A DNA stretch of 51,292 nt from a virus. The stretch covers positions 1-51,292 of IMG/VR virus record IMGVR_UViG_3300028589_000014; one strand, 5' to 3'. The notes beneath the pieces are model-generated. The model ran no database searches and had not been told where the DNA came from. It saw only the letters and a list, made by a program, of their open reading frames with translations. How positions within the stretch are numbered: the stretch's first letter is position 1; each line of letters starts with the position of its first letter. Shown in pieces: positions 3,469 through 26,244 of this stretch. A program made the translations under genes and the position numbers.

Positions 3469-3701
3469 CACCAGCGACTCGTTTTCTTAGGTGTAATGCA
3501 CGCCAAAATACCACGGTACACACCGAAAACAATCACACCTAAGACAGCGAGCAAAATGGTCACGAAGAAAATTGCTGGTTCGAAGCACACCGAAGTGATG
3601 TAAGCAACGAGAGCAATGATTGAATACAAAGTAAACCACTTCGCTCGTCGTTCAACAGTCATTTCGTCGTGCTTCTGTTTGATTTTGCTAAAGAGTTTCA
3701 T
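3468..3701 (-). CDS. Small two-span membrane protein
   Basis: 77 residues: a basic N-terminal helix, then two adjacent hydrophobic segments (WFTLYSIIALVAYITSVCF and AIFFVTILLAVLGVIVFGVY) and a short basic tail. Likely an inner-membrane hairpin. Its ATG overlaps the upstream TGA and sits behind GGAGTGAGG. No function can be assigned. Confidence 0.6.
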   Translation of the reverse strand: MKLFSKIKQKHDEMTVERRAKWFTLYSIIALVAYITSVCFEPAIFFVTILLAVLGVIVFGVYRGILACITPKKTSRW

Positions 3702-4081
3702 TGTCCGTTCCTCACTCCAAAATGTTTTAGTAGAATATCACACATTTCAGCATAGATTATTGGGCTTTTCTCTGGCATCTTAGCCAATCCTGTTCCGATT
3801 CCAGCCGATGGGAATACCAGTGTGAAATATTCACCTTTAACGTAAAGCTCACGTAGAGCGTTCAAGACATGATTGCGTTCACACTTGGTATCGCTAAAGT
3901 AAGCATGTGCAACTGTGTCTGGATAACGCTTGGTAGGTACACCGAACGAGTTTGGTTCTCTTCTGATGCACGCTTGACCGGCTGTACCCCAGCGAGCCAG
4001 ATTGTCACCGAAGACATATAGCTTATTGGGGTTTGCTCTACATAGCTCTACGCTGAACCTGTCAGCGTATTCACTTTTCAC
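3698..4081 (-). CDS. FGDN-motif phage protein (possibly DUF7831-like)
   Basis: 127 residues. Carries YVFGDN, GTAGQACIRREPN, FGVPTK and a FPSAGIGTG loop. This set recurs in a family of small phage and bacterial proteins that I believe is catalogued as a DUF (7831 is my recollection, not checked) and has macro-domain-like glycine loops. The biochemical role is not established. Starts at a GTG overlapping the upstream TGA. Confidence 0.55.
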   Translation of the reverse strand: MKSEYADRFSVELCRANPNKLYVFGDNLARWGTAGQACIRREPNSFGVPTKRYPDTVAHAYFSDTKCERNHVLNALRELYVKGEYFTLVFPSAGIGTGLAKMPEKSPIIYAEMCDILLKHFGVRNGQ

Positions 4082-5158: not shown

Positions 5159-5376
5159 TACTCCTCCTCATCAGGATTCTCTAGCCAGTCAAGAAACTGG
5201 TCAATCTTGTCTTGTGGGATTTGTTCAACATCAAAGTTGGCGTGTTGTCCATACTTATCGTACAGACCATCCCACATTTCAGAACGTACTTCCTCATAAC
5301 AAGTGGAACCACCAGCACATGCGATGTTCTCCATCCACTCAAGCTGGTCTTTCCAGCTGACAAATACTTCACGCAT
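5158..5376 (-). CDS. Small acidic hypothetical protein
   Basis: 72 residues, rich in tryptophan and acidic residues, ending LDWLENPDEEE. Contains a CAGGSTC pair of cysteines. The ATG lies inside the last codons of the SLOG gene in another frame; its own 3' end supplies the ribosome site of the phosphatase gene. Small acidic phage proteins are sometimes DNA mimics or inhibitors, but nothing here shows that. Confidence 0.55.
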   Translation of the reverse strand: MREVFVSWKDQLEWMENIACAGGSTCYEEVRSEMWDGLYDKYGQHANFDVEQIPQDKIDQFLDWLENPDEEE

Positions 5377-5899
5377 ATTGGTTCATAATCTCCATAATTT
5401 GTTCTCTGGTGTGGTTTCGGTCTACCCCGTCCTCAAACCTCATCTTGTAGCCGTTAGGCCAAGTTCCGGTACACGGAATGCCAATCTTAGCAGATGCTAT
5501 AAGACCCGCTAAATCAGCGCCTGTTTGACCACCACTAACCACATGTTCCAATGGCCAATGTGTATCTACTTGGTGCAATATCTGACGAATCATATCATTC
5601 ACTGTGACTTGTGTAAAGCCATATTTTGCAAATGTATAGATTCCATTACCTGCCACGTTTACCACACGACAGTCATTGTCTACCAATAGTTTATACAGTT
5701 TTCGTGCTGAAGGCAACCAACTGGTTGCAAAATTTTTCGCATCACAATGAACAATCCGACCTTCACCAGCAGCCTTAGTGGTAAGCTTTTCACCAGCAGT
5801 GGTGAAATCCACTGCCAGTGCTAGCGTAATACCTTGGGAAGCATTGTGCCATGTTCTCGGAGAGTAGCTTGCACTCTTGTGCTGTAACAACTCAATCAT
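5369..5899 (-). CDS. SLOG-fold protein (YpsA / molybdenum-carrier-like C-terminus)
   Basis: 176 residues in two parts. Residues 1-115 contain NVAGNGIYTFAKYGFTQ, a motif seen in phage proteins without known role. Residues 119-165 carry VVSGGQTGADLAGL, then GIPCTGTWPNGYKMRFEDG, the hallmark of the cpYpsA branch of the SLOG superfamily, which binds nucleotides and NAD-derived ligands. Probably a ligand sensor or nucleosidase; function inferred from fold only. Coupled to the homing endonuclease upstream (ATG inside its end, GAGG before it). Confidence 0.7.
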   Translation of the reverse strand: MIELLQHKSASYSPRTWHNASQGITLALAVDFTTAGEKLTTKAAGEGRIVHCDAKNFATSWLPSARKLYKLLVDNDCRVVNVAGNGIYTFAKYGFTQVTVNDMIRQILHQVDTHWPLEHVVSGGQTGADLAGLIASAKIGIPCTGTWPNGYKMRFEDGVDRNHTREQIMEIMNQYA

Positions 5900-11988: not shown

Positions 11989-12015
11989 CAAAAGAAAACC
12001 CCGCACTATGCGGGG
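11989..12015 (-). terminator. Rho-independent terminator closing the membrane cassette
   Basis: Perfect 6-bp stem CCCCGC/GCGGGG with loop of five bases (11999-12015), followed on the minus strand by TTTTCTTTT. The antiporter TAG stop lies in the loop. Confidence 0.85.
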
Positions 12016-13262
12016 TCATTCTTAGGAGGGAACAACAATTCAACCAGCTTACCTACGGTCAAGCCTTGAAGCAGGATACTACCAAGGACAATCACATAGG
12101 TCAGAGGGAGTAGTACGTCTTTTGCTGGTCCTGCTGGCAATGCCAACACAAGAGCAATCGAAACACCACCACGCAAACCGCCCCATGCTAGCAGCAGAGC
12201 ACTACCGTTAGGCATCTTGTTACCTGTGAACTTTGACATGATAGCCATTGGTGGCAACACAGTCAACATTCGACTCATAATCAGCACAACGAACAAGGAC
12301 AGAGCAACAACCACATGTAGCAAGTTGAACTGTACAATCAGCAGTTCCAGACCGATGATAGCGAACAGCACACCGTTCAAGAATTCGTCAATCAGATGCC
12401 AGAAGTTATTTACCACCTTGTGAGTGTAATCCGACATGTGAGCAAACGGTTTATAGCCAAGACACAGACCAGCTACAACGATTGCCAGTGGCGATGATAC
12501 GTGAATCAAAGAAGCAAGAGTAGCACCACCAAATACCATTACAATTGTTACCATGCCTGCGATGTGAGCCTCATGGATACCTTTAAGGATATACACAGTT
12601 GACAGACCTAGCAAAGCACCGTAAATCACACCACCTACAGCCTCTTGAGCAAACAGCAATCCTACTTCACCAATCGAAGGTGTACCACCAACTGTAATCA
12701 GTGTCAGCAATACCGTAAACACAACAATTGCTGTACCATCATTGAACAAGGATTCGCCAACAATCGTAACCCGTAGGTTATCTGGAGCACCTGCATTCTT
12801 GAGAATTCCCATTACTGCAATTGGGTCTGTGGGACTAATCAAAGCACCGAACAGAAGGCAGTACATCAGGTTTACATCAAGACCAATTGCATGTAGTACA
12901 AAGTAGGTACTGAAACCAATTACAGCGGTTGCTATAACTACTCCAAGGGTTGCTAAACCAGCGATTGCCCATTTGTGTTGTTTCAGGTCACTCACGTTTA
13001 CTGTAAGACAACCAGCAAATAACAGTGCTGGTAGAATCCATGTCATGAGCAATTGATGAAAGTCAATTGCACTGATAAGCTCTACTGCTGTTTGTTCTAC
13101 TACAGGGTAACCCATAAAGGTTAGAGCTTGAATCCCAAGTGACATAACCAAGGCACCTAGCATCACACCAATTGCGTGCGGTAGCTTAAACACCTTGTAG
13201 TTGATTACCGTAAACAGTGTGGTGAATGCGATAATCACTGCAACCATCTGTAACATTGTCAT
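12006..13262 (-). CDS. CPA1-family Na+(K+)/H+ antiporter
   Basis: 418 residues from the ATG at 13262 (GAGGATTAAGC before it). About a dozen hydrophobic spans from residue 5 to the end. Family signatures are intact: SPTDPIAVMGIL in the transport core, VGESLFNDGTAIVVF containing the ion-binding ND pair, and WGGLRGGVSIAL near the C-terminus. There is no long cytoplasmic regulatory tail. Such carriers exchange Na+ or K+ for H+ across the inner membrane. A complete transporter of this type is rare in phages. It directly follows the ATP-grasp ligase (two bases between) and ends in a terminator, so it belongs with that gene and the lipoprotein. Confidence 0.9.
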   Translation of the reverse strand: MTMLQMVAVIIAFTTLFTVINYKVFKLPHAIGVMLGALVMSLGIQALTFMGYPVVEQTAVELISAIDFHQLLMTWILPALLFAGCLTVNVSDLKQHKWAIAGLATLGVVIATAVIGFSTYFVLHAIGLDVNLMYCLLFGALISPTDPIAVMGILKNAGAPDNLRVTIVGESLFNDGTAIVVFTVLLTLITVGGTPSIGEVGLLFAQEAVGGVIYGALLGLSTVYILKGIHEAHIAGMVTIVMVFGGATLASLIHVSSPLAIVVAGLCLGYKPFAHMSDYTHKVVNNFWHLIDEFLNGVLFAIIGLELLIVQFNLLHVVVALSLFVVLIMSRMLTVLPPMAIMSKFTGNKMPNGSALLLAWGGLRGGVSIALVLALPAGPAKDVLLPLTYVIVLGSILLQGLTVGKLVELLFPPKNDPA

Positions 13263-13264
13263 GC

Positions 13265-14527
13265 TTAATCCTCTACAACGATGTGTGGAATCCATCGTTC
13301 ATTACTGATTGATAGAACCTTACTATCAAACTCACGGAAGCACGTTCCCGCTGAATACTTGTTCATCATCCAGTGACCAAGGATGAAGTTGTTACGACCT
13401 TCTACTTGATATGGAGCACAGTACTCTTGGAACACGGTGTTTTCCTCAGAGTAGTAACCACCAGTGTCACTTACAACCTCACCTTTCTCCCAAATTTTGA
13501 TGTTGTTTGAAAGGCGACCAACCACCGGCTTTTCTACCCAGTGATTACCCAATGCACCACTTGGACGTTTCAGATATGTACGCAGCAGTTTGACATGACC
13601 AAACTTACTAGCAAACGAACCCGACTCTTCCATGAGGTATGTACACAGAGCAGTCATACCTTTGTGGGCAAAGAACCAACGCCATGCAGGTTCAAATACA
13701 TGGGTATTATCAACCCAGCGTTCCCAGTTGTCAAGCATTTCTGGATTGTTTTCTACCATTTCTTCCCAAGGTTGCAGGATGTAAACAGCATCCAGTGGTT
13801 CATTGCTACCCATTGCAAAGAATGGCTTATCTGCATCAGTGTCAAAGTCAAGCTCTTTCATATCCAAGAATTGGACGGTTGCCAGAGGTATTGCAGCGTT
13901 AAACGCTTGAGCCAAAGTCTCACAGGTTGCCATGTCTTCGACATAGTTTGTCGCACATGCTACACCAATACGCTTGTAACCTTTGTGCTGCATCTGTTCG
14001 ATAAAGATATCCCAGTAGTTGTTGTACTGGTCAGTACCGAGCATTTGAGCATAGCGATTTTGCAGGTTTACCGATTCAAACAGCATCACCGGTGTGTCAC
14101 CGTTAAACTCATACACACCCATCAGTTGCTCAGTAATTGGGTTGAAGCAGGCGTCAAAGCGACCATACAGTGCGGGATGATGCTTGTGGAACGTTGCTTC
14201 AGCGTATGGGATAAAACGGTCACCATGTTTACGCAGGAACTCACAATCAAAGAACTGACGGAGCAGACCTTTGTTATGGAAAGCCATAGCCAGAGCATAA
14301 TCCATCATCTTGTAGTAGTCTTCAAACTGCTCGTTAAGACGCTCTGTAGTCGAATCCTTGATGGTATAGAAAGGCATGTTATCGCTATGTTTTACAGGGA
14401 ACGACAGCAGGTCTTTAATATCACCATTCAACTCTTCTCCGTCACGGTAGAAAGCACTGAGGAATGGAACCTCTTCTGCTACAACTTGTTCTAGATCAAA
14501 GTTGATCGACTTAAATACAGCTTTCAT
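13265..14527 (-). CDS. YgiC/YjfC-type glutathionylspermidine-synthase-like ATP-grasp ligase
   Basis: 420 residues, like YgiC (about 386). GRFDACFNP, GVYEFNGDTPVMLFES and the C-terminal GALGNHWVEKPVVGR with NNFILGHWMMN are the GSP-synthase ATP-grasp blocks; the amidase half of bifunctional GspSA is absent. The YgiC group is thought to ligate peptides or amines to an unknown acceptor, not to make glutathionylspermidine itself. It follows the YgiB-like lipoprotein, as ygiC follows ygiB in E. coli, and precedes the antiporter. GAGGAAATGA before the start. Confidence 0.85.
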   Translation of the reverse strand: MKAVFKSINFDLEQVVAEEVPFLSAFYRDGEELNGDIKDLLSFPVKHSDNMPFYTIKDSTTERLNEQFEDYYKMMDYALAMAFHNKGLLRQFFDCEFLRKHGDRFIPYAEATFHKHHPALYGRFDACFNPITEQLMGVYEFNGDTPVMLFESVNLQNRYAQMLGTDQYNNYWDIFIEQMQHKGYKRIGVACATNYVEDMATCETLAQAFNAAIPLATVQFLDMKELDFDTDADKPFFAMGSNEPLDAVYILQPWEEMVENNPEMLDNWERWVDNTHVFEPAWRWFFAHKGMTALCTYLMEESGSFASKFGHVKLLRTYLKRPSGALGNHWVEKPVVGRLSNNIKIWEKGEVVSDTGGYYSEENTVFQEYCAPYQVEGRNNFILGHWMMNKYSAGTCFREFDSKVLSISNERWIPHIVVED

Positions 14528-15217: not shown

Positions 15218-17023
15218 TTACAGTTGTGACCGAATTTCGTCAAGCGAAATCAGGTTGTAGAACTCACCATCTTTGAACCGGGTTACTAGTTGGTTCTCAG
15301 TGGAAGCTTCTACTTCCTTACTCACTTGGTCGATGAGAATATAATCACCATCTTCACCCTTGTCAACAAAAAGAAGACCTTTTGCTGATTTCTTTTTAGC
15401 ATCAGTCTTGGGGTCTTTGAAAATTTCAATACCCTCACCATTCACTTCAGTATACGTTGCTTTCACAGCGAAAGCAAATGTATCACGGGTTACACACTGA
15501 TAGGTAAAACTACCCACACCGTACACACAGTTACCAGAGGCAAATCCTTTATCGAACAGACCTTGCAGAATGTTCAGGCAACGAGCAGTAGTAATACTGT
15601 CACCATAAATCAGACCAATGTGACTGTCAAGCATTTTGTGACCAGTGGAGGTAATAGTTCCACCAAACAGATCATACAGCAGTTCAACAGAACCTTTTTC
15701 TTCAGGATCACGCTGAATCTCGTTAAAGTCGTCAACGTTCAGATGAATCTCACCATCATACTCCCTGTAACCAGTGATATCAAGACGATAGTAGGTATTG
15801 TTGTGACGAGCGATCAGTTTGTAAGCTTTGTCGTCTTCACGTTTATCTTCAGCAATCATCTTGTACGCGATTTCATACAGTTCACCGATGAAATCTTTAC
15901 TGTGAGGCTTTACACCTTCACTAATGTGAGCAACCGGCATACCGCAAACTACTTCAACTGGATCACCAGAGTCAGGACGAATTACCAGTTTACCATCCCG
16001 AGCCATGATAACATCTTTCAGGTATGGAAGACCACGCGTCAGAACACCATAGTAATCGAAGCTGTCAGTAACATAGGAAAGCAGACCTTTAGGATACTTT
16101 AGCATCAGTTCGTACAGGAACATCATTTCAGCGATGAGACGCTTATCTTCCATCGCAAAAGTCATACGATCATAGATATTGCGTTGACGCTTCGACATGA
16201 ACTCGTAAGTGCAGTTATTCAGAGCACGTTCAATTCGCAGAATGTTCGATGTTGCTACTGCGTGTTCAGTTGCTGGAACAGAGCCAGATACAAATTTACC
16301 GGCAAAGTAATACTGTTGGGCGTACTGGATAGTACCCATCGAATCACTACCAAGGAACAGAGCAGCGTGACCCAAACCAGAACGTGCAGCATCTTCAGGA
16401 CCAGACATACCACGATCAGCGAAGCTGTGGCCTTGCCAGTTGACCAAATCCAGTGGTGTACCAGTACGAATAGCGAAGTCAGTCAACATTGCCTTGTATT
16501 CAGCAGCGGTAGTAGCGTTGGTGCTGGTTTTCCAAGTAAGGTTAGACAGTACAGTTTCGATGAAGTTTGGCAGCCAGAAGGCGTGCTTCTGAGTGTTCTT
16601 CACGGTCAGTACTGGAATACCCATTTTGACCTTAGTACCTTCCTTCAGAGTTTTCACTTCCAGAGGGAGGTAACCAACATCATGCAGCTTTGCAATACGC
16701 TCAGGTGATACTACACCAACACCAAGAACATTGTCAACAAGTTCAGAATACAGTGCCACAGCGGCTTCTTTATTCATCGTGAAGAAGATGTTCCAGTTAG
16801 CAACGATTTCCATGAAGGCACCTTGAGCACCGATGAAAACCAGTTTGCCGTCATAGTAACGAGTGCACGAACGACGATAAATCTTGTCACTACGTGGTGT
16901 CAGGTTGTTGAAGATGAGTTCAGTACCATCCGAATACTGGTCAGCATGACCCAGCTTATAAGCGTCCGTATTAAACGCAGCAAAAAGATTCAAACGTTGT
17001 GGAACAAAATCAAACTTCTTCAT
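15218..17023 (-). CDS. Nicotinamide phosphoribosyltransferase-like enzyme (NadV/NAMPT family)
   Basis: 601 residues, longer than usual NAMPT (about 490). Family landmarks: NTDAYKLGH (D20, Y22), HSFADRGMSG, FVSGSVPATEHAVATS with the catalytic histidine, LVIRPDSGDP (phosphate and ribose contacts) and GLIYGDSIT, VYGVGSFTYQ near the end. Extra length lies mainly between the RPDSGDP and GDSIT blocks (a charged insert of roughly 70 residues with many K, D and Y) and at the C-terminus. NAMPT makes NMN from nicotinamide and PRPP. With the PRPP-synthetase-like gene nearby and no NMNAT, it may instead use ADPR-pyrophosphate. Confidence 0.88.
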   Translation of the reverse strand: MKKFDFVPQRLNLFAAFNTDAYKLGHADQYSDGTELIFNNLTPRSDKIYRRSCTRYYDGKLVFIGAQGAFMEIVANWNIFFTMNKEAAVALYSELVDNVLGVGVVSPERIAKLHDVGYLPLEVKTLKEGTKVKMGIPVLTVKNTQKHAFWLPNFIETVLSNLTWKTSTNATTAAEYKAMLTDFAIRTGTPLDLVNWQGHSFADRGMSGPEDAARSGLGHAALFLGSDSMGTIQYAQQYYFAGKFVSGSVPATEHAVATSNILRIERALNNCTYEFMSKRQRNIYDRMTFAMEDKRLIAEMMFLYELMLKYPKGLLSYVTDSFDYYGVLTRGLPYLKDVIMARDGKLVIRPDSGDPVEVVCGMPVAHISEGVKPHSKDFIGELYEIAYKMIAEDKREDDKAYKLIARHNNTYYRLDITGYREYDGEIHLNVDDFNEIQRDPEEKGSVELLYDLFGGTITSTGHKMLDSHIGLIYGDSITTARCLNILQGLFDKGFASGNCVYGVGSFTYQCVTRDTFAFAVKATYTEVNGEGIEIFKDPKTDAKKKSAKGLLFVDKGEDGDYILIDQVSKEVEASTENQLVTRFKDGEFYNLISLDEIRSQL

Positions 17024-17549
17024 TAACTTCTCCTAAGATTTCAAATGTACACTTTCTGTGCGATTTCAGTTTACCAGACAAACATCTTGAGATTGCTGGT
17101 TGTTGGAAGCCTTTTCCTACAAGCTCTCTCAAAGAGATAGAATCATAAACAACATTTCCACTCAAGTCAACAACTTTGTATAGTTTAATTTTTCTAAGAC
17201 CTGTCTCAAGAGCATGAATGTTATTTTCTTGCTCAGTACACCATTCGAGATTTTCAACATTGTTGTTCTTTTTATTACCATCAATGTGATTGACAAATGG
17301 TAGATTTTCTGGATTAGGAATAAATGCTTCAGCAACCATTCTATGAATGAATCGGTAATGTGAAACACCGTCAACACTCATGTTTGCATTATAGTAACCT
17401 CCAGAATGTATACGCTTTCGCAATCTTCTACCTTTCCAGAAAGCGAATCCTCTTTTCCTTTTCACGACCCGGCTGACGCTTCGGACATTTCCGAGGTTGC
17501 TAACCTCATACCAGCCGGAAAATCCTACAGCATCTAGCCAGATTTCCAT
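17010..17549 (-). CDS. NUMOD4-HNH homing endonuclease
   Basis: 179 residues. NUMOD4 opening (EIWLDAVGFSGWYEVSNLG), HNH core HRMVAEAFIPNPE...VNHIDGNKKNNNVENLEW, and a C-terminal NUMOD1-like helix-turn-helix (SLRELVGKGFQQPAISRCL). All parts intact. The last codons overlap the start of the NAMPT-like gene by 14 bases, so the NAMPT-like start depends on translation of this gene. Likely inserted between the 17560-17796 gene and the NAMPT-like gene. Confidence 0.88.
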   Translation of the reverse strand: MEIWLDAVGFSGWYEVSNLGNVRSVSRVVKRKRGFAFWKGRRLRKRIHSGGYYNANMSVDGVSHYRFIHRMVAEAFIPNPENLPFVNHIDGNKKNNNVENLEWCTEQENNIHALETGLRKIKLYKVVDLSGNVVYDSISLRELVGKGFQQPAISRCLSGKLKSHRKCTFEILGEVNEEV

Positions 17550-17559
17550 TCGCTATACC

Positions 17560-17796
17560 TTAGAACTGCAATTTGAAGTCAAGAGTTTTGTGTTCTTCAT
17601 CTTTGAAGTAGAAGTCTACCACACATTTCTGTGTGTCTACAACAATGTAATCTACTTCTCGTTCATCATTCAGAAGAATCAACACTTCATCGTGAATTTT
17701 TGGCGAATAAAACATCAATACACCAGTGTCGATTTCATCCCAGCCAGACCATGCTGAACATACGAACTTTTCAATACCCGTAAGATTAGTAACCAT
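17560..17796 (-). CDS. Small hypothetical protein
   Basis: 78 residues from the ATG at 17796 with GGAGAAGAG upstream; earlier in-frame starts lie deep inside the preceding gene. Beta-rich (VLMFYSPKIHDEVLILLND, YIVVDTQKCVVDFYF), like a small beta-barrel. Function unknown. Confidence 0.55.
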   Translation of the reverse strand: MVTNLTGIEKFVCSAWSGWDEIDTGVLMFYSPKIHDEVLILLNDEREVDYIVVDTQKCVVDFYFKDEEHKTLDFKLQF

Positions 17797-18043
17797 TCTC
17801 TTCTCCTTGCAGTTTTTCAATATCAGAATCAGACAATACAATCCAACCACTTGTTGCATTTTTCATTTGTTCGTCACTCCAACCTGCTGCAATTTTAAGG
17901 TCAGGTGAGATTGGATGTAAAACATCTTCACCATAAAGTTCGTATCGAACTTTATCAAAGATATCATCACGAATCTTTGATTGACCTACAGTGTTGCCAA
18001 ACACATGGAAGATCATTTTCAGTTCGTCTTCTGTGAATTCCAT
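17786..18043 (-). CDS. Small hypothetical protein
   Basis: 85 residues, helical and acidic at the N-terminus (FTEDELKMIFHVFG). Contains WSDEQMKNATSGWIVLSDSDI. Overlaps the next gene by 11 bases. No family recognised. Confidence 0.55.
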   Translation of the reverse strand: MEFTEDELKMIFHVFGNTVGQSKIRDDIFDKVRYELYGEDVLHPISPDLKIAAGWSDEQMKNATSGWIVLSDSDIEKLQGEENGY

Positions 18044-18053
18044 TTATTTCTCC

Positions 18054-18470
18054 TTAAATGAGTTTTGAAAGAAGGATTTCTTTTGCCATTGTTGGTGTCA
18101 GGTGTTCATTGAGAATTTCACGTACAACACTAGCCATATCACGACGAATGACCTTTCGCTCAAGTAGTACGGCATCTTCCACAGCATTCTTTACTGTTGC
18201 CTTTACCACTTCGCCAACTTGTTCTTTTACAATTGCTGAGATTGCTTCACTCAATTTTGGATCAGTAATAGTCAGTTTCTTGTTATTCCATGGACCTGAT
18301 TCTGTGGTCATGTCTTTTAGCACGCGGTCAACACGTGCTTTTACAGCTTCTTCAATATTGTCAGCACGGATATTACTGATAACCGCTTGCTGAACTTCAA
18401 GCTTAAAGGTTTCGTTCTCACGAATGAGAGCACGTACACTTTCTGTGTCCAGACGCATTGTAATACTCAA
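18054..18470 (-). CDS. Helical hypothetical protein, TTG start
   Basis: 138 residues, charged and almost fully helical (amphipathic, with many E, K, R and V). The TTG at 18470 is preferred because AAGGAG lies seven bases upstream; the ATG at 18458 would be 19 bases from it. Possibly a coiled-coil or nucleoid-like structural protein. Sits between the PRPP-synthetase-like and smaller genes. Confidence 0.5.
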   Translation of the reverse strand: MSITMRLDTESVRALIRENETFKLEVQQAVISNIRADNIEEAVKARVDRVLKDMTTESGPWNNKKLTITDPKLSEAISAIVKEQVGEVVKATVKNAVEDAVLLERKVIRRDMASVVREILNEHLTPTMAKEILLSKLI

Positions 18471-18481
18471 TTACTTTCTCC

Positions 18482-19321
18482 TTACCAAATGTCAATTACG
18501 ATTACGTTGTCAGCATTCTTATTGCTGTCATAGCTGTTGGTAGTATATACCTTGTCGAAATGCTTTGCAACAGTTTCAACACCGTAAGTGAACAGACCGT
18601 GAGTACAAGCTAAATCAATACGACCATCTACGTCTTCTTCAAGACGAAGGTGATTAGCCAGATTGTAGAAGGTACGACCGCCATCAATGATATCGTCAAG
18701 GATAAGGTAATCAGCGAGCACTGGTACATGATCCAGAATCTGAATGTCACTCAATTCCATTGTATCAGGATTTCGAGCCTTAGTGCAACGAATAACACCA
18801 GCTGCACCAACAAGTTCTGCAAAAGTCTCACACTTCTTCAGTGCTCCCATATCAGGTGCAACGATATACGTTTCAGCAAAGCTTGCTTTGATAGATTTAA
18901 ACAATTCAAACTGGTCAATACCATAGAATTGATCTATCAAAGCACTGACGTTGCTATGTGGATCAAGTGCACTCACCATTTTGAAGTGCATTTGGTTGAT
19001 GATCTTCGACAGATACTTCAGGCCAAAACCACCACCATTCTTGGTGATACGATCTTGACGGGCATACGGTAGGTAAGGCATGTACAGACGAAGGTCACAC
19101 AGTGGATAATGACCACGAATAGCGTGTACAGTTTGACCGAGTGCGATGAGTCGATCATTCAGAGACAGACCGCCTTCACCAAATTGAATGTCAATGGTGA
19201 TGCCCACTGGTTCAACAACGATATCAGCAGAGCCGGTGTTAATGTCAACTTCAACACAACCGTCTTTGTATTGTTTTACGTCAACATTTACGGTCATATT
19301 ACCAACGTGATAGCGAATCAT
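18482..19321 (-). CDS. Ribose-phosphate pyrophosphokinase-like enzyme (PrsA family; candidate ADPR-PP synthetase)
   Basis: 279 residues against about 315 for bacterial PrsA. YMPYLPYARQDR (83-91) is the ATP-binding loop, SALDPHS (118-123) the metal site, DDIIDGGRTF (209-218) the PRPP loop. The N-terminal domain is shortened and the flexible loop differs from PrsA. Standard enzymes pyrophosphorylate ribose-5-phosphate. In NAD+-rebuilding phages an enzyme annotated this way pyrophosphorylates ADP-ribose. Which substrate applies here cannot be read from sequence alone. Same operon as the NAMPT-like gene. Confidence 0.87.
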   Translation of the reverse strand: MIRYHVGNMTVNVDVKQYKDGCVEVDINTGSADIVVEPVGITIDIQFGEGGLSLNDRLIALGQTVHAIRGHYPLCDLRLYMPYLPYARQDRITKNGGGFGLKYLSKIINQMHFKMVSALDPHSNVSALIDQFYGIDQFELFKSIKASFAETYIVAPDMGALKKCETFAELVGAAGVIRCTKARNPDTMELSDIQILDHVPVLADYLILDDIIDGGRTFYNLANHLRLEEDVDGRIDLACTHGLFTYGVETVAKHFDKVYTTNSYDSNKNADNVIVIDIW

Positions 19322-19531: not shown

Positions 19532-20512
19532 CTAAAATTCGATATATGGGTTTGCTACAGCGATGACGTTTGGAATCTTGAGGTCATGCCACAGACGAAT
19601 CATCTGAGGACGGTCATCGATACAGGCAACGATGTTATACGAATTTGCGAGGTGTGTCCAGAAGATTTCTTCTTTGACAGCATTATCTTTTCGCATGTCA
19701 CCAGCTTTGCGCATCCACAGACCGTCACAAGGTACTTCGTGCTCAGCAAGCCACACCTCTGTTTCGGATCGACAGTCATCCGAACGACCACTTACAATCA
19801 GAACCTCATAACCTTGTCGCTTGTAGTTAATCACCATATCGATGATGAACCAACGTGGAAGGTCTTCACCAACACGTGCCCACTCGAAAGGACCACGACC
19901 ATCCATTTGTGCAATTGTACCATCAACGTCAACAATGATAGCTTCTTGAAGCTTTTCATTAGGAGTGTACGTTGGACGCTGAATCACTTCGTTCCACTTT
20001 TGCCACTGTGAGTACAGAACGTTATGACCTACACCATTCAGGCGATATGCGTCACGCTTCCAAGCTTCTTCCAGACTGATTTCCAGTTGATGCACTTCTA
20101 CTTCATAGCCAAGGTCTTCAAGGTTTTTGATGAGCTTGTTTCGCGTAGGAGCATGAAGGTTGGTGTTCGACACGATGATGTTATCACCACGCGAATACGC
20201 TTCCATAATCATTCGACCTTCGATTTCGGTCACTTCCTTCTCTTGTGCTTTGGTCATTTTGTAGTCACGCCAGTCAGCACCGGGTTTTACCAGATTGAAG
20301 CGAATCCAATCACGGTTAACTTCTGTCCAACCTTCAAGCACTTTCTTTGCAGCAAGCGACGATTTACCGCTAGTGCTGATTCCCACAGTTACAATTGCTT
20401 TCAAACCTTTTCTCCTTGTTGGGTCATTCTGTTCGCATATCTCTTCTTCACAGATAGGACACATTAAAGTGTCCATTCCGTCATATTCTACACCATGTTC
20501 AAAGCAAATCAC
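19532..20512 (-). CDS. pseT: Polynucleotide 5'-kinase/3'-phosphatase (PseT-like) with zinc-ribbon N-terminus
   Basis: 326 residues, close to T4 PseT (301) plus an added N-terminal zinc ribbon (CFEHG ... CPICEEEIC, residues 3-26). Kinase P-loop GISTSGKSS (44-52); phosphatase aspartates in VDVDGT (D195, D197), then SGRSDD and IDDRPQM. It heals 2',3'-cyclic phosphate and 5'-OH ends so that RNA ligase can seal them. GTG start overlaps the RNA ligase TGA, so the two are made together, as expected for tRNA repair partners. Confidence 0.92.
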   Translation of the reverse strand: MICFEHGVEYDGMDTLMCPICEEEICEQNDPTRRKGLKAIVTVGISTSGKSSLAAKKVLEGWTEVNRDWIRFNLVKPGADWRDYKMTKAQEKEVTEIEGRMIMEAYSRGDNIIVSNTNLHAPTRNKLIKNLEDLGYEVEVHQLEISLEEAWKRDAYRLNGVGHNVLYSQWQKWNEVIQRPTYTPNEKLQEAIIVDVDGTIAQMDGRGPFEWARVGEDLPRWFIIDMVINYKRQGYEVLIVSGRSDDCRSETEVWLAEHEVPCDGLWMRKAGDMRKDNAVKEEIFWTHLANSYNIVACIDDRPQMIRLWHDLKIPNVIAVANPYIEF

Positions 20513-21642
20513 AAGAACTTTTCCAATAGGGAGACTTTATGACACTGCTTTGCTTGATTGAAAGATTCAATCACACTGATACCTTTCGAGCGAGCACCGA
20601 ACAATACGCCAGAGTATACACAACCTTTGATAGCTTGAGCAAACTCTTTTTGGTCTTCGATACCTTTCACGCCTTCATAGTGGTTATCCATGGCAACCAT
20701 CAATGTGTCATACGCTTCAATGTAAGGCTCAAGCGGTTCACGATCTTGTGGGAAGTAGGTCAGGTATTCGTCCACTTCACCAGAAATAACAAGCTCACTC
20801 ATGCGCTTAGGGTTCAAGCCTTCACCTCGAATGTGGTGTACAGCAACGTATGCTGGTGACTTGATCTTGCAAATAGGTACGCCATCTTGATACACAACGT
20901 AACCTTCGTCAAGGTCTTTCAGTACAGCAGCACTACCAACGGCTTCGTCTTCACTGTTGAAAGAGAATTGCTTAGCATCAACAATACGATTACCAATCAT
21001 GTCAGCGGCGATGTTAGCCTCTTTAAACAACCATTCACGTTCCTGTTCGCTCAAATAATGTCCACGGAAATGACGAGCACCAAGGAAGTGCATGTTATAG
21101 CCGCTGTAAGCTCGTACAACGCGGTTTTCAAAGCAAGTAAGCTCAAAGACATAGGTGACACATGGGTTGAGCTTTGAGTAGCCACAAAGATTCTGAAATT
21201 CGTTGTCACTGCGAACACCGAGTGCTTTGAAAACAAGTTCGCGGAATGTCACACCATGACCCATACATTCGCTTTCAGCAAAGGCAGTACCACGGGTTCC
21301 TACTTCCCACTTACCATCCCAGTAGATTTTGATGAGGCTCCCGTCAACCTTTTCGTACACTTTAGCTTTTGCCCAATCGATCACAGGTGTAACGTTGAGT
21401 GCTTCACCGAGGTTAAAGAATCGGTCGAATGGTCGTGCGACTACTTCAAGGTCGAAGTTCAGAATCAGACCACGGCATTCCCGAACGATTGGGTCAGTCT
21501 TTGGGCTTTCGATCTGGTTGTAGTTCAGTACGAAAATGTTTCGGTCATGGTAAACCTTAGCTTTGATGCCAAGCTCTTCTTCCAAACGTTGCAGCCCGTG
21601 AAACAGACCATCCGATTGCTTGATGAATTCGATTACTTTCAT
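20509..21642 (-). CDS. rnlA: T4 RnlA-like RNA ligase 1
   Basis: 377 residues (T4 Rnl1 is 374). Nucleotidyl-lysine motif VYEKVDGSLIKIY places the lysine at 98; GTRGTAFAE, YVFELTCFENRVV, EGYVVYQ and CKIKSPAYV are motifs III to V. Start at the ATG at 21642, eight bases after AAGGAG; an earlier in-frame start lacks a site. Seals tRNAs cut in the anticodon loop (PrrC-type damage) after end healing by the kinase/phosphatase encoded next. Zinc-ribbon genes precede it. Confidence 0.92.
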   Translation of the reverse strand: MKVIEFIKQSDGLFHGLQRLEEELGIKAKVYHDRNIFVLNYNQIESPKTDPIVRECRGLILNFDLEVVARPFDRFFNLGEALNVTPVIDWAKAKVYEKVDGSLIKIYWDGKWEVGTRGTAFAESECMGHGVTFRELVFKALGVRSDNEFQNLCGYSKLNPCVTYVFELTCFENRVVRAYSGYNMHFLGARHFRGHYLSEQEREWLFKEANIAADMIGNRIVDAKQFSFNSEDEAVGSAAVLKDLDEGYVVYQDGVPICKIKSPAYVAVHHIRGEGLNPKRMSELVISGEVDEYLTYFPQDREPLEPYIEAYDTLMVAMDNHYEGVKGIEDQKEFAQAIKGCVYSGVLFGARSKGISVIESFNQAKQCHKVSLLEKFL

Positions 21643-21652
21643 TTGTTTCTCC

Positions 21653-21841
21653 TTAGAAAATGGTAGGTACAGGTGTTTGAGCACCACAGCATGGGCAATG
21701 AATCCGAGCTACGCGATCACGACAGCCAGTGTAATCGGATTCCAATGCAAACCTCATGTCGGTGAATTGGTATTCTAGTACAGTCTTGCACTGATAGCAA
21801 GTGGTTCGTTTGTTTTCTGGTTTGCTTACGATAGTCACCAT
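21653..21841 (-). CDS. Small zinc-ribbon protein
   Basis: 62 residues with two CxxC knuckles: CYQC (residues 15-18) and CPCC near residue 49-52, typical of a rubredoxin-like zinc ribbon. AGGAGAATAGAA before the ATG. No further function visible; second gene of the leftward operon. Confidence 0.65.
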   Translation of the reverse strand: MVTIVSKPENKRTTCYQCKTVLEYQFTDMRFALESDYTGCRDRVARIHCPCCGAQTPVPTIF

Positions 21842-24092: not shown

Positions 24093-24167
24093 CGGCGGTT
24101 AAGCTCAATAGGTAGAGCTATGGATTCGAAATGTCCATGGTTTCAGGTTCGAGTCCTGTTCGGTCGT
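24093..24167 (+). tRNA. Degenerate tRNA-like gene, Phe (GAA) by position
   Basis: A tRNA cloverleaf can be drawn: D-stem AGCT/AGCT, anticodon stem TGGAT/GTCCA with loop TCGAAAT, T-arm CAGG TTCGAGT CCTG. The acceptor has two mismatches (positions 5-68 and 7-66), the T-stem one, position 33 is C instead of T, and no CCA is encoded, unlike the other tRNAs here. Either a decaying gene or one with a non-translation role. Confidence 0.4.
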
Positions 24168-24184
24168 TGATTCAATGTATTTAT

Positions 24185-24260
24185 ACGTCAGTAGCTCAAT
24201 TGGCAGAGCGACGGATTCCAAATCCGTTGGTTGTAGGTTCGACTCCTACTTGGCGTCCCA
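24185..24260 (+). tRNA. tRNA-Trp (CCA)
   Basis: Acceptor ACGTCAG/TTGGCGT (with G-U pairs), D-arm GCTC/GAGC, anticodon arm ACGGA TTCCAAA TCCGT, T-arm GTAGG TTCGACT CCTAC, encoded CCA. The discriminator is C, where bacterial tRNA-Trp usually has G. Confidence 0.9.
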
Positions 24261-24261
24261 A

Positions 24262-24337
24262 CCCTGTGTAGCTCAGTAGGTAGAGCAGAGCCTTGATAAG
24301 GCTTTGGTCGGTGGTTCGATTCCATCCGCAGGGACCA
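24262..24337 (+). tRNA. tRNA-Ile (GAT)
   Basis: Acceptor CCCTGTG/CGCAGGG, D-arm GCTC/GAGC, anticodon arm GAGCC TTGATAA GGCTT, T-arm GGTGG TTCGATT CCATC, discriminator A and CCA encoded. Starts one base after the previous tRNA ends. Confidence 0.92.
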
Positions 24338-24344
24338 ATTTTAT

Positions 24345-24426
24345 AGCGAGTCGGCTAAGACTGACTGGTGTTGTCATGTGGCTCATAACCACACGCTAAC
24401 GTGTTCGATTCACGGACTCGCTACCA
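24345..24426 (+). tRNA. tRNA with CAT anticodon (Met or lysidine-Ile), enlarged D region
   Basis: Perfect acceptor AGCGAGT/ACTCGCT, anticodon arm TGTGG CTCATAA CCACA, T-arm with CGTG TTCGATT CACG, discriminator A and CCA. The D region is 25 bases instead of about 19 and only GAC/GTC pairs convincingly. CAT may read AUG, or AUA if the C34 is modified to lysidine. Confidence 0.78.
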
Positions 24427-24432
24427 ATTTAT

Positions 24433-24550
24433 GGGTTGTGTTGGACTTGTTTTGATTATGGTAACCTCACCCTCTTCGGTCGCACCGACAAGGTAAGGAT
24501 AGTTGGCCTTACTACCTAGAAACAAAGCGGTTCGTTTCCGCTACAATCCC
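24433..24550 (+). ncRNA. Oversized tRNA-like element of unknown role
   Basis: GGGTTGT (24433-24439) pairs over seven positions with ACAATCC (24543-24549, one G-U), and a perfect five-base T-arm-like hairpin AGCGG TTCGTTT CCGCT precedes the 3' half, exactly where a T-arm should be. But the body is 118 bases, some 25-30 too long even for a class II tRNA, no D-arm fits, and hairpins TCGGT/ACCGA (near 24477-24489) and GTAAGG/CCTTAC (24493-24512) fill the middle. No CCA follows. Confidence 0.45.
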
Positions 24551-24558
24551 CGATTTAC

Positions 24559-24633
24559 ACCCGTGTAGCTCAGCGGCAGAGCAACTGACTGTTAATCAGT
24601 AGGTCTTAGGTTCGATCCCTAACGTGGGTGCCA
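24559..24633 (+). tRNA. tRNA-Asn (GTT)
   Basis: Acceptor ACCCGTG/CGTGGGT, D-arm GCTC/GAGC, anticodon arm ACTGA CTGTTAA TCAGT, T-arm TTAGG TTCGATC CCTAA, discriminator G and CCA encoded. Confidence 0.92.
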
Positions 24634-24730
24634 ATACATTTCAATAGGGTTGACTCGCTATTGATCTTAGGAAGCTGATGAAGAGACAGCTACGAGAAAC
24701 TAATTTTGGAGAGAATAGGAGAAATAAAGA

Positions 24731-25348
24731 ATGTCGCAACAAATCACTGTAACCCGTGCTCTGGCTCAGGTAAAGTCGCTGAATGATCGTATTGAACGTG
24801 CTACCAACACTTCGTTCGTATCCTTTACAACTGGTGGTAAACACAATACTGGTAAGAGTGAGCAAGAGATTGCTTCGCAACTGACAGCGAACCTTCAGTC
24901 TGTAACCGACCTGATTAAGACTCGTGCAAAGGTAAAAGCTGCTATCGTCCGTAGCAACGCTAACACAAAAGTAAACGTCTCTGGTGTTGAAATGACTGTA
25001 GCTGAAGCTATCGAACGTAAAGGTTCTATTCAGTTTGAAGTAGCACTGCTGAATCAGATGCGTCAACAACTGAGCACTAACACTGCCATGGTTGAGCGTC
25101 AGAACGTACAGATGCAAGCTCGTCTGGATGAACTGATTAAGACTGCTGCCGGTAAAGACCGAAAGGTTGAGGAAGCTGAAATCAAAGCGATCACTGATCC
25201 ATTTGAACGAGCTAACCGGGCTGCACTGCTTAACCCAAATGATTTGTCGAAAGTTATTGAAGGTTTGGAGAAAGACATTGCTGACTTTGTAGAAGAAGTT
25301 GACTTTGCACTATCTGAAGTGAACGCGATTACTAAGATCGAAGTTTAA
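24731..25348 (+). CDS. Coiled-coil protein of unknown function within the tRNA block
   Basis: 205 residues. Mostly helical with heptad pattern (TRALAQVKSLNDRIERAT; residues 95-140; and 160-200), plus one FVSFTTGGKHNTGKS segment that is polar and glycine-rich. The KEVEEAE-type C-terminal helices suggest a coiled-coil oligomer. Good AGGAG site before ATG. Late-style codon use (CTG-rich, GGT, AAC) suggests high expression. May be structural; no family recognised with confidence. Confidence 0.6.
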   Translation: MSQQITVTRALAQVKSLNDRIERATNTSFVSFTTGGKHNTGKSEQEIASQLTANLQSVTDLIKTRAKVKAAIVRSNANTKVNVSGVEMTVAEAIERKGSIQFEVALLNQMRQQLSTNTAMVERQNVQMQARLDELIKTAAGKDRKVEEAEIKAITDPFERANRAALLNPNDLSKVIEGLEKDIADFVEEVDFALSEVNAITKIEV

Positions 25349-25715
25349 AAAGATTTAGTCATGTTCCGGTGAGTTGACTTCACTAGATCGGCTTCTTCGC
25401 TGTGTGCCGTAAACACAGTGAGCCTACTTTGGATAAAGTGCCTAAATTGTCTCGATATGACTATTTATATATCATGCTGCGATGACTAAGCTCAAAGTTT
25501 AAAGTTCAAAGGTAGAAAGCTGAAAGCTTAACCATTAACATTGTAAATGGATAACGCACAAAGCACAAAGATTATCGAATCTTGGATATGGTTGAGTGGT
25601 TACTTCTAGACCCTGACAACGCCCCAAGCTGCCGGTGACATGACAAAGTTTTCGTTGCAAGGAGGCTGGGTAACCTCCAGAAAACATCCCACCATTTATT
25701 AAAGGAGAAAAGAGA
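25349..25715 (+). other. Structured non-coding stretch inside the tRNA block
   Basis: 367 bases without a convincing gene or canonical tRNA. Visible hairpins: GGCT..CTGTGT/ACACAG..AGCC (25390-25424), ACTTT/AAAGT (25425-25438), CCATT/AATGG (near 25532-25550) and GGAGG/CCTCC (25661-25678). A stretch of imperfect AAAG repeats lies at 25490-25530. Located between promoter and terminator of the tRNA unit, so it should be transcribed. Confidence 0.45.
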
Positions 25716-25850
25716 ATGACCAAGCAATATGATGCAACTGCTGAACACAAACCATTTGAAGCTTCCTCGCAGAAGTCGAAGGGTCACCCTAACAAGGGTC
25801 TGAAAGGTAAGAATCCTTACAGTGGTGTTGAGTTGAAAGAAGGTAAGTAA
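25716..25850 (+). CDS. 44-residue basic protein
   Basis: Starts MTKQYDATAEHKPFEASSQ behind AAAGGAGAAAAGAGA; ends LKEGK. Rich in Lys, Gly, Ser and Asn (KGHPNKGLKGKNPYSG), no hydrophobic core, likely disordered and nucleic-acid binding. Sits between RNA genes. Unrecognised. Confidence 0.55.
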   Translation: MTKQYDATAEHKPFEASSQKSKGHPNKGLKGKNPYSGVELKEGK

Positions 25851-25858
25851 AGAATAAC

Positions 25859-25938
25859 GGTTTATGGGACTGCTCGGTGTGGTCGCCCGCCTGTCACGCG
25901 GGATATTCAGATGGGTTCGATTCCCATATAAATCGCCA
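25859..25938 (+). tRNA. tRNA-Asp (GTC)
   Basis: Acceptor GGTTTAT/ATAAATC (one G-U), D-stem GACT/GGTC, anticodon arm CCCGC CTGTCAC GCGGG, T-arm ATGGG TTCGATT CCCAT, discriminator G, CCA encoded. Positions 8-9 read GG instead of TA and the variable loop is eight bases. Confidence 0.85.
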
Positions 25939-25943
25939 ATTAT

Positions 25944-26026
25944 GCCGGGGTCGCATAGTGGCCCATTGCACCTGTCTTGTAAGCAGGTATTCCAGATCGT
26001 GAGTTCGAATCTCACTCCCGGCACCA
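25944..26026 (+). tRNA. tRNA-Thr (TGT)
   Basis: Acceptor GCCGGGG/TCCCGGC, D-stem GCA/TGC, anticodon arm CCTGT CTTGTAA GCAGG, T-arm GTGAG TTCGAAT CTCAC, discriminator A, CCA encoded. Variable region of 11 bases is longer than usual. Confidence 0.87.
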
Positions 26027-26042
26027 ATAGCTAGGCTTGGCT

Positions 26043-26078
26043 TATGAGGTAGAAGCCCGTATATTCCAAAACCTCATA
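26043..26078 (+). repeat. Inverted repeat between tRNA-Thr and tRNA-Glu
   Basis: TATGAGGT (26043-26050) pairs perfectly with ACCTCATA (26071-26078) around 20 bases. Likely a spacer hairpin that helps processing of the two tRNAs. Confidence 0.55.
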
Positions 26079-26086
26079 CATATTCT

Positions 26087-26161
26087 ACACCTATCGTCTA
26101 ACGGTTAGGACACAGGGTCTTCGCCCCTGCAATCAGAGTTCGATTCTCTGTAGGTGTACCA
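26087..26161 (+). tRNA. tRNA-Glu (TTC)
   Basis: Acceptor ACACCTA/TAGGTGT, Glu-like D-arm CGTCTAACGGTTAGGAC, anticodon arm CAGGG TCTTCGC CCCTG, T-arm CAGAG TTCGATT CTCTG, CCA encoded. TTC at 34-36 is read by position; base 33 is C, not T, and 37 is G, so decoding is slightly uncertain. Confidence 0.75.
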
Positions 26162-26166
26162 ATTAA

Positions 26167-26244
26167 CTGTGCGTAGCGAAAGTCAGGTTATCGCCTCGGT
26201 TTGGAACCGAGAACACGTTGGATCGAAGCCAACCGCACAGACCA
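26167..26244 (+). tRNA. tRNA-Pro (TGG)
   Basis: Acceptor CTGTGCG/CGCACAG, D-stem GCGA/TCGC, anticodon arm CTCGG TTTGGAA CCGAG, T-arm GTTGG ATCGAAG CCAAC, discriminator A and CCA encoded. T54 is A in this gene. Confidence 0.87.

Follow-up and report, generated by a model that had tools for sequence, protein, structure and literature searches.

A predicted NARP1-type NAD+ reconstitution gene pair in a Pseudomonas phage related to vB_PpS_SYP

The window analysed here is a whole IMG/VR virus record (IMGVR_UViG_3300028589_000014; 51,292 bases) from a Pseudomonas phage, and it carries on its minus strand a gene for a protein resembling phosphoribosyl pyrophosphate (PRPP) synthetase (Prs) upstream of a gene for a protein resembling nicotinamide phosphoribosyltransferase (NAMPT). 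This gene pair very probably encodes a NARP1-type pathway for the reconstitution of nicotinamide adenine dinucleotide (NAD+), with the two products acting as ADP-ribose pyrophosphate synthetase (Adps) and nicotinamide ADP-ribose transferase (Namat), respectively. Phage NAD+ reconstitution is reportedly the subject of a Nature paper of 2024. Many other phages have NARP1 pairs, and NARP1 has been described in the related Pakpunavirus phage Adele (PMC12846349); the window pair is therefore a well-supported addition to a known kind and not a new type of system. NARP1 chemistry has been established for Bacillus phage SPbetaL1 (PMC12774641) and for mycobacteriophage DyoEdafos (PMC13232231); for the window, both chemistry and substrate are what we infer. 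A preliminary description of this DNA had proposed NARP1 as a candidate reading, and that proposal now gains support from the clamp motif of the Namat-like protein, an altered loop of the Adps-like protein, phylogeny, and the absence of an NMNAT gene from the window and a complete relative.

In the proposed pathway, the Adps-like enzyme would use ATP to pyrophosphorylate ADP-ribose (ADPR) at its 1'' hydroxyl, giving ADPR-pyrophosphate (ADPR-PP) and AMP. The Namat-like enzyme would then swap the pyrophosphate for nicotinamide, so that NAD+ forms directly, without nicotinamide mononucleotide (NMN) and without NMNAT. Since ADPR and nicotinamide are the leftovers of host NADase defences, the likely role of the pair would be to sustain NAD+ levels if an infected host triggers such a defence. 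The window is ~91.5% identical over 24 kb to Pseudomonas phage vB_PpS_SYP (hereafter SYP; complete, 107,173 bases); it represents a 51-kb part of a genome of ~107 kb, and SYP served as a stand-in for the missing half. For wider comparison, we collected 160 IMG/VR loci from two scans, together with named phages, and checked each for Adps-like and NMNAT-like neighbours; motifs were counted in full-length proteins only. Profiles were used for scanning, as the window protein alone, run as a single query against IMG/VR, gave only one partial relative. In the collected loci, Adps usually lies upstream of Namat on one strand, as it does in the window, where the two genes are 1.46 kb apart; the gene order from Adps to Namat matches that of SYP, except for an HNH gene.

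The 601-aa NAMPT-like protein matched phrog_448 (NAMPT; PHROGs, E 1.8e-168). Among solved structures, its best sequence match was 9w5x/9w5w (353 bits), compared with 303 for NadV of Haemophilus ducreyi (HdNadV; PDB 9ke8, solved with NMN) and 167 for human NAMPT. Entry 9w5x, titled 'Crystal structure of Namat', is the SPbetaL1 protein, to which it was identical across the 242 residues compared. A fold search with the AlphaFold model (predicted local distance difference test score, pLDDT, 92.5) also placed Namat at the top (E 1.2e-47, TMt 0.92), with HdNadV at 3.5e-42 and human NAMPT at ~3e-35. The catalytic core is fully kept: D13, Y15, F189, R192, D215, H245, R306, and D308 of SPbetaL1 Namat are all identical in the window (D20, Y22, F201, R204, D227, the catalytic His254, R349, and D351, respectively). 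The residues contacting nicotinamide and ribose in Namat are likewise kept save for S190A and A362S, both of which occur in Adps-linked relatives too. Between the RPDSG and FGG motifs, an insert of ~80 extra residues was modelled as a small folded alpha/beta domain (helix 376-392; strands 399-407, 410-420, and 426-436; pLDDT ~75-90). The preliminary description had singled out this protein as long, with an insert; the length of 601 residues stands, but such an insert is no anomaly. The RPDSG-to-FGG stretch is 99 residues in the window, against a median of 69 (range 16-148) in Namat-type proteins and always 16 in NadV-type proteins, so that, among the proteins measured, long inserts are found in most of the Namat type and in none of the NadV type.

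SPbetaL1 Namat has its catalytic core in common with NAMPT and also bears a selectivity clamp for ADPR-PP, which consists of a loop (SCL) and a helix (SCH); the SCL contributes Arg40, and the SCH has the consensus GSX-phi-X-phi-X-phi-TRD, with the aromatics F392 and Y396 (PMC12774641). Double clamp mutants lowered NAD+ synthesis by up to 16.6-fold, with R40A/F392G keeping NMN synthesis, whereas single clamp mutations cost just 1.3-1.7-fold (PMC12774641). In the window, the SCH reads GSFTYQCVTRD (G504-D514), with an aromatic residue at position 3 and Cys510 at position 7, and the SCL is TPRSDKIYRRSCTRYYDGK (T42-K60).

The 279-aa protein matched phrog_619 (ribose-phosphate pyrophosphokinase; PHROGs, E 2.5e-67), and its model (pLDDT 93.0) had PRPP synthetase of E. 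coli as the top PDB fold match, at 20% identity and E 7.2e-17. RQDR (R88-R91), His122, Lys181/Arg183, and D209-D210 are kept; together with the identical Namat core, this bears out the earlier statement that the catalytic landmarks of both enzymes are intact. The Prs fold, RQDR, the catalytic His, and the K-R flexible loop do not discriminate, because they are common to Prs and Adps. In E. coli Prs, the phosphate of ribose-5-phosphate (R5P) is contacted by Asp224, Thr225 (side chain and amide), and Gly226 (PMC6332680). The corresponding loop in the window is DDIIDGGRTF, with Gly214 in place of Thr225 (DDIIDGGRT versus DDMIDTGGT in E. coli). Loss of this Thr, a regularity found here and not a published criterion for Adps, held for 91 of 91 Namat-linked partners (Gly in 80, Tyr in 8, and Phe, Asn, and Met in one each). 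The archaeal Prs examined keep an STGGT loop, and a Prs-like enzyme beside a GGGLLQ-type NadV and an NMNAT (L159) keeps the Prs-like pattern DLHA...KRR...RSGGS. An opened R5P loop would be expected in Adps, because ADPR has that phosphate joined on to AMP; no structure of Adps is available (PMC12774641). The preliminary description had also found this enzyme short, and 279 residues is correct, but the partners have a median of 287 and one third of them are no longer than 279, so the length is not unusual.

At the SCH, every one of the 91 loci that had Adps but no NMNAT carried the motif G[SA][FY], and none of the 63 that had NMNAT but no Adps did; the latter all had GG[GAQ] or GAA. These counts describe separation and not prevalence, because the profiles behind the two scans were NARP1-rich and NadV-rich. 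With the SCL and SCH columns left out, the tree split Adps-linked and NMNAT-linked proteins with an SH-aLRT support of 100 and one label change. The window protein fell within the Adps-linked clade, which also contains SPbetaL1, and grouped with SYP, phiPMW, Pakpunavirus, and Otagovirus. It thus lies outside the NMNAT-linked clade, and the 601-aa sequence has no GGGLLQ..RD NadV motif. One Namat-type protein of the collection (L076) has a 7-residue insertion within the clamp motif (GSFTYQGAVTPNAIVTRD).

The NMNAT model PF01467 matched neither the window nor the complete genome of SYP (107 kb); as a positive control, the model detected two phage NMNAT-Nudix proteins. NARP2 with a hidden NMNAT was rejected on this ground. 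The earlier observation that no NMNAT gene is visible thus extends to SYP, and the genome-wide absence rests on SYP as a proxy, because the window is a 51-kb fragment.

Several points weigh against NARP1 in the window. At SCH position 7, where SPbetaL1 Namat has the adenine-contacting Y396, the window has Cys, and the stacking Arg40 of the SCL is replaced by Lys47. HdNadV and two Pasteurellaceae relatives, once added to the tree, branch inside the Adps-linked clade, yet the SCH of HdNadV (GAQTYQRNTRD) lacks both clamp aromatics. Namat can also use PRPP in vitro (PMC12774641), which gives an NMN route a small probability, and the genome is incomplete, with about half available. Because HdNadV-type proteins fall inside the clade, tree position is insufficient as proof, and the case rests on the residues and the partner gene. 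Comparison of the pockets with those of Adps/Namat and Prs/NadV, suggested by the preliminary description, favours NARP1 for both enzymes, with one of the two clamp aromatics absent. At SCH position 3, the HdNadV-type proteins within the clade (L262, from H. ducreyi pNAD1; L225; L257) carry Gln or Leu, and a Prs with the loop DDMIDTGGT is encoded near that of L257; donor use seems to switch between ADPR-PP and PRPP inside this clade.

The altered clamp raises the question of specificity. Among 94 Namat-type proteins, position 7 is Tyr in 58, Phe in 12, Cys in 15, Met in 6, and His in 3. All 15 Cys cases are from Pseudomonas phages or close relatives, published Pakpunavirus types included, and have an SCL stretch of 25-26 residues, versus a median of 20 in Tyr/Phe members. 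This conserved long-loop pattern would fit a NARP1-like pair whose clamp prefers another nucleotide diphosphate-ribose, or is promiscuous, and is not strictly selective for ADPR-PP. SCL length was associated with loss of the position-7 aromatic at a raw Mann-Whitney p of 1e-8, but we do not claim co-variation, because the Cys cases are essentially one clade (at most one of six independent pairs is informative), which leaves the co-occurrence unsupported by phylogenetically independent cases. Moreover, DyoEdafos Namat uses ADPR-PP with His at position 7, and the window retains the position-3 aromatic; we regard such a departure from ADPR-PP as improbable. The SCL core of the window is Lys47-Ile48-Tyr49-Arg50, in which Lys agrees with the published rule (Arg, or Lys/Tyr and then a stacker); since the following residue is Ile, the stacker may be Tyr49 or Arg50. 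It is conceivable, though rather unlikely, that Pseudomonas-phage Namats have an alternative adenine clamp, in which the long Arg/Tyr-rich SCL (KIYRRxCTxYYDGK) stacks the adenine and Cys replaces the second aromatic, accompanied by the extra alpha/beta domain. If so, donor recognition in these Namats would differ from that in SPbetaL1 Namat, and their specificity might be altered. The Cys at the adenine-contact position in this clade shows, as far as predicted Namats can, that a signature with two aromatics, as published, is too narrow a criterion for Namat.

A different possibility is a NARP2-like route in which PRPP from the Prs-like enzyme is turned into NMN by the NAMPT-like enzyme, with the last step to NAD+ borrowed from a host NMNAT (NadD/NadM/NadR). 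Both PRPP-synthetase and NAMPT catalytic cores are kept, the NMN-forming activity of Namat in vitro is about half that of human NAMPT (PMC12774641), and HdNadV, a close structural relative with no adjacent Adps, was solved with NMN. However, the R5P-loop Thr is lost in the window as in every Namat-linked partner, the GSF clamp motif is found in none of the 63 NMNAT-linked NadVs and HdNadV has no position-3 aromatic, identity to E. coli Prs is a mere 22%, and no phage NMNAT (PF01467) was detected in the window or SYP. We therefore consider this route very improbable and retain NARP1.

That the pair is a degenerate remnant, broken up by a homing endonuclease and without function, is barely credible: an HNH gene does lie between the two genes, overlapping the Namat start by 14 nt, but both open reading frames (ORFs) are full-length with all catalytic residues kept and high-confidence folds, purifying selection is evident against the SYP homologues (nonsynonymous-to-synonymous ratio, dN/dS, ~0.17 for the NAMPT-like and ~0.18 for the Prs-like gene), and an HNH gene also separates intact Adps and Namat in a Felixounavirus (L007, 3468-3959). 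The HNH gene is the sole intervening gene of the window missing from SYP, where Namat comes directly next. Because blastn colinearity with SYP breaks exactly at the edge of the HNH gene (window 17558), this gene is a recent insertion, and it is probably not part of the pathway. SYP itself has a NUMOD-like homing endonuclease gene upstream of Adps (L001, 26254-26751), so that homing endonucleases occupy differing spots of the NARP1 operon in the window, L007, and SYP.

These results would add a further lineage of Pseudomonas phages to those with this known counter-defence. What they add is residue-level support, a simple mark for Adps, and evidence that the Namat signature is too narrow. Adjacent annotations of 'ribose-phosphate pyrophosphokinase' and 'nicotinamide phosphoribosyltransferase' could be re-read from sequence by the SCH motif GS[FY] together with loss of the R5P-loop Thr, and the latter, as a mark of Adps, is a simple testable prediction.

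Table 1. Genes of the run that contains the predicted NARP1 pair (window coordinates).
Feature	Position	Strand	Basis
Namat-like (nicotinamide ADP-ribose transferase), 601 aa, intact ORF	15218..17023	-	ORF, PHROGs, alignment, tree, fold model
Free-standing HNH homing endonuclease (NUMOD4 + HNH_3)	17010..17549	-	Domain match, SYP comparison
Small gene, 78 aa by homology to SYP gp174, phrog_4991	17560..17796	-	Longest ORF to 17859
Small gene, 85 aa, SYP gp173 homologue	17786..18043	-	ORF, homology
Small gene, 138 aa, SYP gp172 homologue, phrog_38203	18054..18470	-	ORF, PHROGs, homology
Adps-like (ADP-ribose pyrophosphate synthetase), 279 aa, PRPP-synthetase fold, intact ORF	18482..19321	-	ORF, PHROGs, fold model
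Polynucleotide kinase/3'-phosphatase (Pnkp), upstream in same run; separate RNA-repair function	19532..20512	-	Domain match, PHROGs
T4 Rnl1-type RNA ligase, upstream in same run	20509..21687	-	Domain match, PHROGs

The pair belongs to a tight run on the minus strand, in the order RNA ligase, Pnkp, a 66-aa ORF, the PRPP-synthetase-like gene, genes of 138, 85, and ~78 aa, HNH, and the NAMPT-like gene. The preliminary description had placed both enzymes in one operon, separated by small genes and a homing endonuclease, and the ORFs were recovered at exactly the positions it gave. One small gene had been called at 99 aa; SYP homology favours 78 aa, with a start at ~17796. The intervening small genes were considered as a RyDEP-like signal-degrading enzyme, and this was rejected: no RyR domain was found in the window or SYP, and RyDEP had no similarity to the intervening genes. 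A macro-domain ADPR supplier, as in Adele and PaP1, was rejected as well, since neither the window nor SYP has a macro-domain gene. In Thalassa, PaP1, and PPSC2, NARP1 is flanked by such genes (L012, 3445-3918; L005, 6897-7376; L006, 6795-7292), which are possible suppliers of ADPR.

At bacterial chromosomal Adps-Namat loci, a Nudix-domain protein of 230-270 aa was encoded within 5 kb in ~50 of 80 cases. All six that were checked (L183, L184, L194, L201, L234, and L260) consist of NUDIX and an NrtR winged helix, as in NrtR-type regulators, which suggests an ADPR-type control of bacterial NARP1. NMNAT-profile matches at bacterial Namat loci were not NMNATs; nearly all fell in the Nudix half of the profile. 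A special tie of NARP1 to RNA ligase or Pnkp was rejected, since RNA ligase is present at 24/94 Namat-type and 16/84 NadV-type loci, a difference that is not clear. Near the Pnkp/RNA-ligase pair, the plus strand carries eight tRNA genes (window 24093-26244), which would agree with tRNA repair as an additional counter-defence. The gene run that holds the NARP1 pair also includes, further downstream, a glutathionylspermidine-synthase-like preATP-grasp protein (13265-14527), adjoined by an ORF that by eye resembles a cation/proton antiporter (12006-13295), an unusual phage cargo. Elsewhere in the window are a partial match to the cpYpsA SLOG family (5372-5899), whose superfamily is linked to sensing of nucleotides and NAD derivatives, and a DUF7831 protein with a FGDNLARWGTAGQA motif (3701-4081).

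Among known systems, NARP2-type NadV plus NMNAT of Vibrio phage VspSw_1 and Stenotrophomonas phage Mendera shares the NAMPT-like core with the window but differs in its GGGLLQ motif, an adjacent NMNAT-Nudix gene, the lack of Adps, and identities of only 26-27%. HdNadV (PDB 9ke8/9keo) is nearer to Namat than human NAMPT is and has TYQ..NTRD in the SCH, whereas it has Gln at position 3, Arg at position 7, no Adps on the plasmid stretch, and no long insert. Pakpunavirus PaP1 resembles the window in Namat (~53% identity), Cys at position 7, a long SCL, a similar insert, and an upstream RNA ligase; in PaP1 and Otagovirus PPSC2, unlike in the window and SYP, a macro-domain gene adjoins Namat. NARP1 of SPbetaL1 (PMC12774641) shares with the window the upstream Adps, the Namat fold, catalytic core, dinucleotide-pocket residues, and G-S-F motif, and the lost R5P-loop Thr of Adps. 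It differs in that identity is 43% for Namat and 27% for Adps, and that the window has Cys for Tyr396, Lys47 for Arg40, a longer SCL, the extra ~80-residue domain, and three small genes plus HNH between Adps and Namat. Adps and Namat of DyoEdafos make NAD+ from ADPR in vitro (PMC13232231). This pair also has Pnkp nearby and an insertion between Adps and Namat, although its inserted gene encodes RyDEP, a RyR-domain glycosidase of cyclic ADPR. Its Adps loop is DDICDGGGT and its Namat motif is GSFTYQHNTRD, so that an experimentally active pair shares the Adps change of the window and tolerates a residue other than Tyr or Phe (His) at SCH position 7.

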